Assembly: GCA_019192455.1 (NCBI GenBank)
Contig: JAHCML010000009.1
Span: forward strand, 62,001-126,000
Length of the DNA stretch: 64,000 bases
From: Alphaproteobacteria bacterium SS10
GTDB lineage: Bacteria > Pseudomonadota > Alphaproteobacteria > TMED2
Direction: 5' to 3'
The position numbers and the translations under genes are program-made. Positions 33,217 through 38,513 of this stretch are shown piece after piece. The notes beneath the pieces were generated by a model. The model was not told where the DNA came from and did no database searches. It saw only the letters and a list, made by a program, of their open reading frames with translations. Positions within the stretch are counted from its first letter, which is position 1, and each line of letters starts with the position of its first letter.

Positions 33217-34086
33217 ATGAACAAGGTCTCTGAACCTAATCCGCCAATTGATGGGCAAAGCGCCAGTACCATTGATGCGCCAGCGCCGATTGACCTCGCC
33301 CCATTGGCCGCTGGCGATCTGGCTGCTTTGGCGGCTGCGTTCCCGCAGGCGGCGGCAAGGGACGACACCCTGGCCGACTGGCCACCCGGTTCTGATGGGG
33401 CTAAGGCACGGATTGAGGCCTTAGCACCCCAGGCCTATGAGAAGAGCCGAAACCATGTGGACGGTAAGGTTTCCCGCCTTTCCCCCTATATCCGCCATGG
33501 GGTTGTTGAGTTGGCGGCGATCCGCGATGCCGCGCTGGATAAGGTGGGCAAACCCAAGCAGGCCTTCAAATTCGTGCAAGAGCTGGCCTGGCGGGATTAC
33601 TGGCTCCGCGTCTATGCCGAGATTGGCGATGGCGTCTGGGACGATCAGGAAGATTGGAAGACCGGCTTTACCGCCGGTGATTATGCGGATCAGCTGCCCG
33701 ATGAGATCCCAGCCGGTCAAACCGGCCTGAAATGCATGGATGATTGGGCGGATGAGCTGCGGGAAACCGGCTATCTGCACAATCATGTGCGGATGTATGT
33801 GGCCGCCTATGTGGTTCATTACCGCCGGGTTAAGTGGCAGGCGGGCGCGCGTTGGTTCCTTATCCATCTGCTGGATGGCGACCCCGCCTCAAACAATCTG
33901 TCCTGGCAGTGGGTGGCCAGCACTTTTGGCCACAAGCCCTACATCTTCAACCGGGATAATCTGGTGAAGTACACGGATGGTAAGCATTGCCAGGGCTGTC
34001 CCCATGCGGTGGCCGGTACCTGCCCGTTTGATGCGTCCTATGACGCCTTGTCTGATCGGTTGTTTCCAAATGGCCAGGGCGGCTAG
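33217..34086 (+). CDS. photolyase/cryptochrome FAD-binding domain protein (antenna-less)
   Basis: The 289-residue product corresponds only to the C-terminal FAD-binding half of DNA photolyases and cryptochromes: YEKSRNHVDG and LSPYIRHGVVE near residues 73-95, ELAWRDYWLRVY (122-133), HNHVRMYVAAYVVHY (188-202) and DPASNNLSWQWVASTFGHK (222-240). The N-terminal antenna domain is missing; residues 1-60 are short and unlike it. Four cysteines at 173, 258, 261 and 269 resemble the spacing of the iron-sulfur ligands of bacterial FeS-type photolyases, in which the first ligand lies about 88 residues before a CxxC. The next gene, 14 bases on, encodes what looks like the missing N-terminal domain. Confidence 0.88.
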   Translation: MNKVSEPNPPIDGQSASTIDAPAPIDLAPLAAGDLAALAAAFPQAAARDDTLADWPPGSDGAKARIEALAPQAYEKSRNHVDGKVSRLSPYIRHGVVELAAIRDAALDKVGKPKQAFKFVQELAWRDYWLRVYAEIGDGVWDDQEDWKTGFTAGDYADQLPDEIPAGQTGLKCMDDWADELRETGYLHNHVRMYVAAYVVHYRRVKWQAGARWFLIHLLDGDPASNNLSWQWVASTFGHKPYIFNRDNLVKYTDGKHCQGCPHAVAGTCPFDASYDALSDRLFPNGQGG

Positions 34087-34100
34087 TAAGGGGTTGGGCG

Positions 34101-34562
34101 ATGCTGATTTGGGTTCATGATGATGCGTTGGGGCCAACTCAGCTGGTGTTTGAGCGGTTTCCGAAGGCAGCCGCTGCCTATGTCTTCGATGATCAGGTGA
34201 TTGAGCATCGGCATTATGGGCTGAAGCGTTTGCATTTCATTGCCGGTTGCCTGGCCACGCTGAACGAGCATCACCCGGTTGCGACCTATCATGGTGATAC
34301 GGCGCAAACTCTCGCCAGCCTGGCCAAGCAATCTGGCACCGACATAATCGCCACCATGGCAACCCCTTGTCCGAAGCTTGGGCAGGTCATGGGTGACCTG
34401 GAGGTGCGGCATGGATTGTCACTCACGGTGGTGGAGCCGACGCCCCTCGTGCAGCTGGAAAGTGAGCCCGACCTAAAGCGCTTCTCACGCTATTGGCGGC
34501 AGGCTCAAAAGTCGGCGTTCAAACATGCCGATTTGCCGTTGTTCAAACGACCGCAACCTTGA
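34101..34562 (+). CDS. photolyase N-terminal (antenna-type) domain protein
   Basis: The 153-residue product resembles the alpha/beta N-terminal domain of photolyases: an opening strand LIWVHDDALGP, YVFDD in the second strand, YGLKRLHFIAGCLATL as the following helix, TYHGDTAQTLASLAKQ, and the acidic DLEVRHGLSLTVVEPTPLV near the end. A final FSRYWRQAQKSAF segment is also seen in stand-alone proteins of this sort. It lacks any FAD-binding part. It follows the FAD-domain gene by 14 bases, so the two pieces are likely made together, in the reverse of their order in a fused photolyase. The identification is by eye and is less certain than that of its neighbour. Confidence 0.72.
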   Translation: MLIWVHDDALGPTQLVFERFPKAAAAYVFDDQVIEHRHYGLKRLHFIAGCLATLNEHHPVATYHGDTAQTLASLAKQSGTDIIATMATPCPKLGQVMGDLEVRHGLSLTVVEPTPLVQLESEPDLKRFSRYWRQAQKSAFKHADLPLFKRPQP

Positions 34563-35869: not shown

Positions 35870-37057
35870 TTACGGTGCGGGGGCAGCGTCAGCTTGTGAG
35901 GTTGGGCCACCCAGGGTTTGGTTCCGGGGCAGGGTTTCTGGACCAGGCGTGGTGGGCTCAACCGCGTCACCGGCAATTGGGTCGCCGGGCTGCAGGCCCT
36001 CAGCCTTCAGGATGGCGGCCAGGTCAGGGTTGCGGCGGATGGCAACAACGGCTGAGCTCATGCCCTCAAGCAGTTGGCGTGCGGTGATCCGGGTGCCCGG
36101 GTCGTCAGAGTCTTTCCACTCCTGATAATGGCTGCGGGCCGCCAAGATGCTCTCGACCGGGTTCTCACGTTGGTTGGTAATCAGCGCCCGCGATTGGGTG
36201 ACCATGTCCAGCATGTTGGCCATGTAGTGCAGGTTGGTGCGGCCAATATCGCGCATGGCGGCCAGGGTCTCCGCCAGCTCACCCTCGGCGCGGGGCGGCT
36301 TGTCCATCGTGTCGTACTGGCGGCGTAGGCGGTTCGCCTGTCCGCGATGATGGGTGGCCTCGCGTGCCATGTTGACCAGGCCGGTCAGCTGGGTGCGGGC
36401 GTTCAGCCGCTCCTCATTCTCAGACCCGAAACCGAGATAGCGTCGGCCACCCTTCAGCTCGCCCAGGATCTCTGGGTTCTCTTCAACCTGTTGAGCGGCG
36501 GCTTCCAGGGCATCCTCGCCCAGCTCGCGGCGTAGTTCCGACCATTTACGGCGTGCCACGGCAGGCTCGTCATAGGCGCGGATGATCGCATTCTCGATGC
36601 TGCTTTCCGCAATGTTGGCGCGGCCGCCTTGCTCGCTCATCTGGCGGGCCACATGGCTGCGACGGGCCATTTGATCGCGCCAGGCAATGGCGGTGTCCAA
36701 ACGCTCCGGCGTTAGATAGGTGCTGAGCCAGGCCGCACGTTCGGCAACCACCTCAAGGGCGCGTTGGCGGCTCGGCAGGCCATTCATGGTGGAGCAGGCG
36801 CCAATAATCACATGATGGCCCATGCTTTTGTTCAGCTCATCTGACTCATGCAGGGTTGGGGCATCGCGATCCGCCATCTTGCGGATGTCAAACATGTGGT
36901 TGTCGAGCTGACCCTGACCAAGGAAGGGGATCGGGTCGCGCCAGGCCGGCATGGCCGACTGATCAGGCGTGGCCTCCTGTTCATGCCCCATCGTGCTCAA
37001 ACGCTCGAGCAGCGTCGCATAGGCGCCGGGTGAGCCGTCATACCGATGGGGATGCAT
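35870..37057 (-). CDS. unknown protein, tandem paralogue A
   Basis: I do not recognise this family. From the ATG at 37057, which has a strong GGGAGG site eight bases upstream, the product is 395 residues. It has no signal peptide or membrane helix and is predicted mostly helical and polar. It is a clear paralogue of the next gene: shared segments are the N-terminal MHP(H/L)(R/K)Y(D/N)GSPG, RAAWLSTYLTPE, TAIAWRDQMA versus RAIAWRDQVA, LKGG, RRQYDTM versus RRQYDAM, and AMRDIGRTNLHYM versus AMRDINSINLHYM. The C-terminal 35 residues are Pro/Gly-rich and probably disordered. The open frame extends 118 codons further upstream, but that part lacks similarity to the paralogue. Confidence 0.85.
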   Translation of the reverse strand: MHPHRYDGSPGAYATLLERLSTMGHEQEATPDQSAMPAWRDPIPFLGQGQLDNHMFDIRKMADRDAPTLHESDELNKSMGHHVIIGACSTMNGLPSRQRALEVVAERAAWLSTYLTPERLDTAIAWRDQMARRSHVARQMSEQGGRANIAESSIENAIIRAYDEPAVARRKWSELRRELGEDALEAAAQQVEENPEILGELKGGRRYLGFGSENEERLNARTQLTGLVNMAREATHHRGQANRLRRQYDTMDKPPRAEGELAETLAAMRDIGRTNLHYMANMLDMVTQSRALITNQRENPVESILAARSHYQEWKDSDDPGTRITARQLLEGMSSAVVAIRRNPDLAAILKAEGLQPGDPIAGDAVEPTTPGPETLPRNQTLGGPTSQADAAPAP

Positions 37058-37096
37058 AGGTTTCCTCCCTTGAGACAATGGGGTGCGTTTGATGAT

Positions 37097-37173
37097 GTTT
37101 TGTATACTATATAAGTAACAATCGGGCCATAAAAATCTGCATTGTTTCCTTAAATTAGACAAAAAATCTGTCG
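37097..37173 (-). promoter_or_regulatory. conserved upstream region of paralogue A
   Basis: This 77-base AT-rich region aligns without gaps to the region upstream of paralogue B. Four identical blocks are, in transcription order, TTTTTGTCTA, GAAACAATG, ATTGTTAC and TATACAAAAC, separated by 7, 17 and 8 non-conserved bases. Its near edge is 40 bases before the ATG at 37057, exactly as for paralogue B. No standard -35/-10 pair fits convincingly. Confidence 0.7.
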
Positions 37174-37252
37174 ATTGACGCGTTTTGGGAGGAAAAATGG
37201 CGTCGAAACCAGGGTTGAGCCAGCGTGATACCGGCTGGGTGCTGCGCCACAA

Positions 37253-37295
37253 CGCGAAAGGCCCGCCAGCGGAGGATGGGATCGCTGGTCGAGCC
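37253..37295 (-). terminator. possible terminator of paralogue B
   Basis: On the minus strand GGC-CCAGCG pairs with CGCTGG-GCC around a central loop with a small internal loop, then TTTCG follows. The T run is weak, so this may only be a stem-loop. Confidence 0.35.
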
Positions 37296-37325
37296 TTTGC
37301 GGTAGGGCCTAAATTGTGGGGGTAA

Positions 37326-38474
37326 TTAGGCCAGATTGCTGGGTCCGGTGCGCTCCGGGCTGCGGGCGGTGCCTGGTCGCTTCTTGTCGGCCAGCGGGTT
37401 GGTTGGCTCAATGCCCTGGGCGCGAAGGCTGGCCGACAGGCTTGGGTCGTCCATGATGGCGGTGAAGGCTGGGGCCAGGCCCTGCCTTAGGCTGCGGGCG
37501 GCGCTGCGGCTGCCCATGTCATCCTGGGCAATCAGATCATGGTACAGCTCTCTTGCCGCCACGACGGTGGTGACCGGATCGGTTTCTTGGCCGGCGATCA
37601 GCGCCTGTGCCCTGGTCACCTTGTCTGCCATATCCATCATGTAATGCAGGTTGATGCTGTTGATGTCGCGCATGGCCATGAGGGTGTCTGCCACTTCGGC
37701 ATCGCCCCGGCCGGGCTTCTCCATGGCGTCGTATTGGCGGCGGATCTTGGTGATCTGCTGGCCATGATTGGCGATCTTGGCCGCTGATTGCGGCAGGGTG
37801 GCCAGGCTGTTGATCGCCTCTCGCCGTTCGGCATTGGGACCGCCGAGGCCAAGCCAGGTGTTACCACCTTTAAGGGTGCCAATAATCGATGGGTCCATCG
37901 ACACCTTGCGCGCTGCCGCAGCGAGGCCGCCCGTCTCGGGGGCAGAGACCAGCTCACCCCAAGCCTGTTTGGCGGCATCGGGATCGGTAAAGGCATTGGC
38001 CACCACCCGCTCCATCGCTCTGGTGTCTTGATTGATGTGGTTGCGGTTGTCGCTGATCTGGCTGCTGAGTTCGGCCACCTTGGCGACCTGGTCACGCCAA
38101 GCAATGGCGCGGTCCATCTTCTCCGGCGTTAGGTAGGTAGAGAGCCAGGCCGCGCGCTCGGTCAGGATGTCGAGGCTTTGCTGACGGGCGTCCAGGCCGT
38201 CTTTAACCGAATGGGCGCCGATAGTGGCGTGGTGGGTCATCGGTTGATCAAGCTGATCATCAGGGTGCAGCGTCGCGCCATCCCGGTCTGCCATGCCTTT
38301 CAGTACGGGCATATGGGCGTCGAGATCGGCGGTGGCGATATTCGGCAGAATGTCCTGCCAGCCGGGCATCGGCCCTGCCAGATCGTGGGCTGATCGCTTC
38401 TCACCCATGGTCGCTAGCCGCTCAAGCTGGGCCTCATAAGGGCCGGGCGAACCGTTGTATTTTAATGGGTGCAT
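37326..38474 (-). CDS. unknown protein, tandem paralogue B
   Basis: The 382-residue product is the paralogue of the preceding entry and is likewise unrecognised. The ATG at 38474 is preceded by GAGGAG seven bases away; three codons further upstream the open frame has no similarity to the paralogue. The protein is soluble and mainly helical, with the shared core running from the N-terminal MHPLKYNGSPG through RAAWLSTYLTPEKMDRAIAW, the LKGGNTWLGLGGPN loop and RRQYDAMEKPGRG to the MRDINSINLHYMMDMADKVT helix. The extreme C-terminus is basic and Pro-rich. Conservation is strongest in the N-terminal tag and in the central helices. Confidence 0.85.
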   Translation of the reverse strand: MHPLKYNGSPGPYEAQLERLATMGEKRSAHDLAGPMPGWQDILPNIATADLDAHMPVLKGMADRDGATLHPDDQLDQPMTHHATIGAHSVKDGLDARQQSLDILTERAAWLSTYLTPEKMDRAIAWRDQVAKVAELSSQISDNRNHINQDTRAMERVVANAFTDPDAAKQAWGELVSAPETGGLAAAARKVSMDPSIIGTLKGGNTWLGLGGPNAERREAINSLATLPQSAAKIANHGQQITKIRRQYDAMEKPGRGDAEVADTLMAMRDINSINLHYMMDMADKVTRAQALIAGQETDPVTTVVAARELYHDLIAQDDMGSRSAARSLRQGLAPAFTAIMDDPSLSASLRAQGIEPTNPLADKKRPGTARSPERTGPSNLA

Positions 38475-38513
38475 TGATCTACTCCTCGACAACAATCTCT
38501 TATCTGAACACTT

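Follow-up and report, generated by a model that had tools for sequence, protein, structure and literature searches.

Two adjacent genes in the window (the whole 64,000-nucleotide stretch that was analysed) raise the question of whether the two halves of a photolyase, encoded separately and in reversed order, can constitute one enzyme, and which reaction such an enzyme would catalyze. Gene 1 (33217..34086, + strand, 289 aa) is followed on the same strand, in a different frame, by gene 2 (34101..34562, + strand, 153 aa). The 14 bases between the stop codon of gene 1 and the start codon of gene 2 (34087..34100, + strand) contain a ribosome-binding-like stretch, AAGGGG, located 7 bases ahead of the gene 2 start codon (ATG). 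A sequence-only reading of this locus had taken the first gene for the FAD-binding half alone and the second for the antenna domain, and had proposed that both products form a two-subunit protein for light-dependent repair or sensing.

No LexA-type operator (GTTC-N7-GTTC) was found upstream of gene 1, and matches to this motif across the window did not exceed chance level. Likewise, a promoter and terminator scan at the locus yielded nothing clearly above shuffled sequences. Two tandem paralogous proteins with 44% identity are encoded on the - strand at 35870-38495; they matched PF17841 (the BID domain of Bartonella effectors) weakly and below the threshold (E 6.5e-4 and 9.2e-4). Two more photolyases with the ordinary domain order are encoded on contig C2 of the same genome (L001 and L002; open frames of 484 and 531 aa), so that the pair is not the sole photolyase of this organism.

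Gene 1 encodes a separate FAD-binding half

Pfam analysis of the gene 1 product revealed PF03441 as the sole domain match (E 1.7e-23, residues 119-244), and an N-terminal photolyase domain was not found in this chain by the same analysis, as the sequence-only reading had stated. Residues 1 to about 35 form an extension without conservation, and the C-terminus is located 20 residues behind the last cysteine. In the alignment, the protein shares 48-61% identical amino acids with 33 relatives. The gene 1 profile showed its top matches with the class I photolyases 1tez and 1owl (E ~9e-27), and PhrB was matched at only ~2e-4. From these data, gene 1 was annotated as a catalytic half of the SPL (short photolyase-like)/Phr4 type.

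The motifs YIRHG and NNLSWQW, which had been recognized beforehand, are located at residues 91-95 and 226-232, respectively. When gene 1 was aligned with the photolyase of A. nidulans, E283, W286 and R287 corresponded to E122, W125 and R126 of gene 1, N349 and M353 to N189 and M193, D380, D382 and N386 to D220, D222 and N226, and W390 and W392 to W230 and W232. All these positions are nearly invariant across 79 pairs, and the functions of the A. nidulans residues are established knowledge on class I photolyases. W367 of the electron-transfer chain is represented by W207, and an almost invariant tyrosine (Tyr156) seems to occupy the position of W314, in a region in which the alignment is less certain. 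Judging from the alignment, gene 1 keeps the residues of a class I photolyase for cyclobutane pyrimidine dimers (CPDs), which favours CPD repair over 6-4 repair.

Four conserved cysteines probably bind an iron-sulfur cluster

The four cysteines of gene 1 to which attention had been drawn are indeed present at positions 173, 258, 261 and 269, with 85 residues from Cys173 to the CxxC motif. Cys173, the predicted first ligand (33733..33735, + strand), is conserved in 77 of the 79 pairs and lies in the motif xxCxxxxxxxxxxTGYxH, which is the same in the FeS-BCP relatives L023 and L028. Cys258 and Cys261, the predicted second and third ligands (CxxC; 33988..33999, + strand), are conserved in 77/79 and 78/79 pairs, respectively, and YCxxC is present in the aligned region of L023 and L028. 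The predicted fourth ligand, Cys269 (34021..34023, + strand; 77/79), is part of a CPF motif that also occurs in the FeS-BCP relatives. The suspected resemblance to the ligands of FeS-type photolyases was thus borne out, and from their conservation it is concluded that these cysteines very probably bind a [4Fe-4S] cluster.

In the two exceptions among the 79 pairs (L005 and L090), the ligands are missing together and not singly, which is the pattern expected for cluster ligands. Both pairs belong to the alphaproteobacterial class, and their gene 1 has no cluster cysteines; they represent a natural test of the purpose of the cluster.

Gene 2 encodes an antenna-type domain

The sequence of gene 2 itself provided weak evidence: PF00875 was matched with an E value of 0.013, which is under the Pfam cut-off, and a search of the PDB with the single sequence gave no useful match. 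Tests at the level of the family, of profiles and of structure were therefore added. PF00875 was matched by 25 of 36 members of the gene 2 family (best E 7.9e-5) and the related DPRP family by 3 of 36. Profile-profile alignment with the N-domains of FeS-BCP proteins extended over 137 columns (E 4.5e-7, valid for a single comparison). In this alignment, the RFSRYW conserved at the end of gene 2 was paired with the YTPYW that ends an ordinary N-domain. The family profile also matched the homologous region of cryptochrome 8p4x in the PDB, if weakly (E 0.024).

The AlphaFold2 model, calculated from the 36-member alignment, showed a five-stranded alpha/beta fold (pLDDT 93.4), and the best 27 matches of this model in the PDB (Foldseek) were all photolyases or cryptochromes (top E 3.1e-4, TMq 0.62). 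As judged from the profiles and the model, gene 2 is a photolyase N-terminal alpha/beta (antenna) domain by fold, made as a separate, Phr5-like subunit, and the PF00875 match is real. An unrelated fold, which had been named beforehand as an outcome that would speak against the pairing, did not emerge, and the FAD half first, antenna-type half second arrangement of the two genes was confirmed.

Both genes occur together, also when they are unlinked

Among 80 sampled relatives of gene 1 from Alphaproteobacteria, Chloroflexota, Acidobacteriota and Cyanobacteria, 75 have a gene 2 homologue directly or shortly downstream on the same strand, and many of these linked pairs show a 4-base ATGA stop/start overlap, typical of translational coupling. 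One of the five others (L010) is located at a contig end; in the remaining four (L039, L053, L060 and L067), gene 2 was detected elsewhere in the genome (E ~1e-61 or better).

The survey for co-occurrence that the sequence-only reading had proposed gave a clear result in the Cyanobacteria (the phylum of Microcoleus vaginatus). Gene 1 was detected in 36 of 194 genomes and gene 2 in the identical 36, and by the same criterion neither gene is present in the other 158. Within the 36 genomes, the pair is linked in 22 and unlinked in 14. The Fisher test gave p 5e-40, uncorrected for shared ancestry; such formal p-values are too small because the sampled genomes are related. One of the 158 genomes without the pair encodes a more distantly related photolyase (451-aa frame, E 4.5e-64) and lacks gene 2.

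A further sample comprised 297 genomes of uncertain taxon; it was drawn first for the phylum to which L017 belongs and then for that of L015, and was counted once since both draws gave identical genomes. In this sample, gene 1 (E<1e-90) and gene 2 (E<1e-30) were found in the same 4 genomes, three of them with unlinked genes. Both genes were also found in the same 2 of 204 genomes of the own phylum, and all four genomes of the own class with a strong gene 1 contain gene 2, one of them in diverged form. Linkage has been lost but neither gene has been lost, which indicates an obligate partnership. The mirror-tree correlation of the two proteins was high as well (r 0.90; permutation maximum 0.30); it was not counted as evidence, since common descent of the species could by itself produce it.

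It could be argued that gene 2 serves several photolyases in general, or that a Usp/HUP protein of no relation to them happens to lie nearby, as Usp was weakly matched by 2 of 36 gene 2 family members and Usp structures appeared lower in the Foldseek list. However, the presence of gene 2 follows that of gene 1 exactly, genomes without gene 1 lack gene 2 though some have other photolyases, and in Acidobacteriota gene 2 is fused to gene 1, which makes this explanation very unlikely. Even less credible is the idea that an ordinary photolyase decayed or was frameshifted and left the pair as a remnant. Two open reading frames in different frames, 14 bases apart, might suggest such an origin, but a frameshift cannot yield a reversed domain order, and several phyla have conserved the two proteins and retained them jointly, also where the genes are unlinked.

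Natural fusions and neighbouring photolyase genes

In several Acidobacteriota, both domains are fused in one open reading frame in the same reversed order (L015, its near-duplicate L016, L035, L040, L043, L072, L075 and L083). The structure predicted for the L043 fusion (439 residues) reached a pLDDT of 90.9 and a pTM of 0.91; confidence was low only in a short linker. Such a pTM is hard to reach unless the domains are confidently placed relative to each other, and it is the evidence that suggests an interface between the separate products of gene 1 and gene 2. Absence of an interface had been named as a further outcome against the pairing; the reversed-order fusions were instead modelled as a compact two-domain protein. 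Compared with ordinary photolyases (Foldseek), the L043 model gave TMq values of about 0.3-0.46 and only about one domain was covered, as is expected because the domain order is reversed.

A second, different photolyase gene often adjoins the pair. It lies upstream in L013, L023, L026, L028, L047, L063, L076 and L077 and downstream in L014, L017, L032, L047, L048, L056, L069 and L084; an FeS-BCP-like gene precedes the pair in several Chloroflexota, and a VWFKRDLR-type photolyase follows it in Acidobacteriota. Photolyase genes of other classes beside the pair support a role in repair. From the proposal of a two-subunit repair or sensing protein, the repair part was retained, due to the catalytic residues and the neighbouring photolyases, and no support was obtained for sensing. 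A cryptochrome-like light sensor with gene 2 as signalling partner would be compatible with the obligate partner and the two-protein layout. Nevertheless, such a sensor is highly improbable, since the catalytic residues are intact, the neighbours are photolyases and not signalling genes, and a mutant of the related phr4 showed a defect in UV survival (PMC9426592).

Comparison with known systems

A split photolyase with reversed order of the halves is already known. In 2012, two adjacent genes encoding the two photolyase domains were described for Synechococcus WH7803, with the suggestion that their products might form a heterodimer (PMC3441193). The genes were named phr4 and phr5 in marine Synechococcus in 2022, and in two Cyanobium strains they are joined in one gene, phr6 (PMC9426592). 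As in the window, the FAD half comes first and the photolyase-domain half second, and four cysteines are present at positions homologous to those of gene 1. The cysteines of L140/L141, which come from two genomes of picocyanobacterial size, correspond exactly to the published positions C169/C254/C257/C263, which ties the window pair to the Phr4/Phr5 family. Unlike Phr4/Phr5, the window pair lies in a genome whose nearest sampled relatives share no more than its class, Rhodospirillaceae-like Alphaproteobacteria among them. The spacing of the window pair differs from that of Phr4/Phr5, so that the idea of a cyanobacterial frameshift is not needed.

The phr4 mutant of strain RS9916 showed a lower survival after UV-C (PMC9426592). 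The phr4/phr5 region protected E. coli against UV-C, the light dependence was not significant, and the authors predicted a 6-4 photolyase (PMC9426592); this result and prediction count against a two-subunit CPD photolyase. The same two-subunit enzyme might accordingly repair 6-4 photoproducts, as was proposed for Phr4/Phr5 from the iron-sulfur cysteines: the four-cysteine pattern matches that of the FeS-BCP 6-4 photolyases, and the phenotype of the phr4 mutant occurred with UV-C and not with UV-B (PMC9426592). On the other hand, gene 1 is nearer to class I/III CPD photolyases than to PhrB by the profile matches given above, and the CPD-contacting residues E122, W125, N189, M193 and W232 are kept. 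In several relatives a separate FeS-BCP gene adjoins gene 1 and would be redundant. Furthermore, the SPL of R. fascians, reportedly studied by Xu in 2021, is said to bear a cluster and to repair CPDs. A 6-4 specificity is thus considered rather unlikely, and repair of CPDs by the two-subunit enzyme is preferred.

The FeS-BCP or prokaryotic 6-4 photolyases (PhrB, CryB) share with gene 1 the motifs that hold the four cysteine ligands, and have an N-domain alignable with gene 2 over the 137 columns mentioned. They differ from the window pair in being a single chain with a DPRP-type N-domain followed by the FAD domain, and the FAD domain is only distantly related to gene 1. Canonical class I/III photolyases carry the alpha/beta and FAD domains in this order in one chain; the window pair shows neither feature.

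SPLs were described as a class without an alpha/beta domain (PMC9649867; mentioned in PMC9178010). Gene 1 likewise is short, has no such domain in its chain, and resembles class I/III CPD photolyases most closely in the profile matches; the four cysteines, present in some SPLs, are found in gene 1 as well. In contrast to this description, the alpha/beta domain of the window pair exists as a separate, strictly co-occurring gene.

A reversed topology with an N-terminal catalytic domain was also reported for NewPHL/Phr7 (Emmerich et al. 2020, as cited in PMC9426592). This protein is reported to be a single chain with a C-terminal Z-domain and without cluster cysteines, whereas gene 1 possesses four cysteines and no such C-terminal domain. 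The Z-domain was considered as a fused gene 2 homologue and rejected, as only a short C-terminal FxRYW-like motif was found in common by hhalign. For a candidate further reversed architecture, hhalign gave no confirmation.

Proposed function and implications

The pair likely represents an SPL-type photolyase with an iron-sulfur cluster that requires both subunits, probably acts on CPDs and receives its antenna-type domain in trans. Gene 1 would be the catalytic subunit, which binds FAD and the predicted [4Fe-4S] cluster and takes up the UV lesion, most likely a CPD; the lesion would be split by electron transfer from the light-excited FADH- of gene 1. Gene 2 would provide the alpha/beta domain that ordinary photolyases carry N-terminally in their single chain. 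Made separately here, it might dock on gene 1 and cap the FAD side, hold an antenna chromophore, or both. The SPL of R. fascians is reportedly active on its own, so that catalysis may not require gene 2.

What is added here to the known split photolyases is the strict, linkage-independent co-occurrence of both genes, their wide spread and the natural fusions. Part of this apparent novelty may already be contained in the original SPL and NewPHL papers. Since the antenna domain seemed to be missing, SPLs were proposed as a candidate root of the photolyase/cryptochrome family (PMC9649867, PMC9498864), and an antenna-type subunit that strictly co-occurs, even if distant in the genome, bears directly on this argument. 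The chances appear about even that the whole SPL class is not antenna-less but uses the alpha/beta domain as a separate, obligate, often unlinked and trans-acting subunit. Through the co-occurrence, the wide spread and the fusions, the idea developed for picocyanobacteria becomes a testable statement on the whole SPL class. If it is true, the 'minimal ancestral photolyase' would be half of a split enzyme, and the published activity of lone SPLs would be merely partial. Such a natural two-chain photolyase would allow light capture and catalysis to vary separately.
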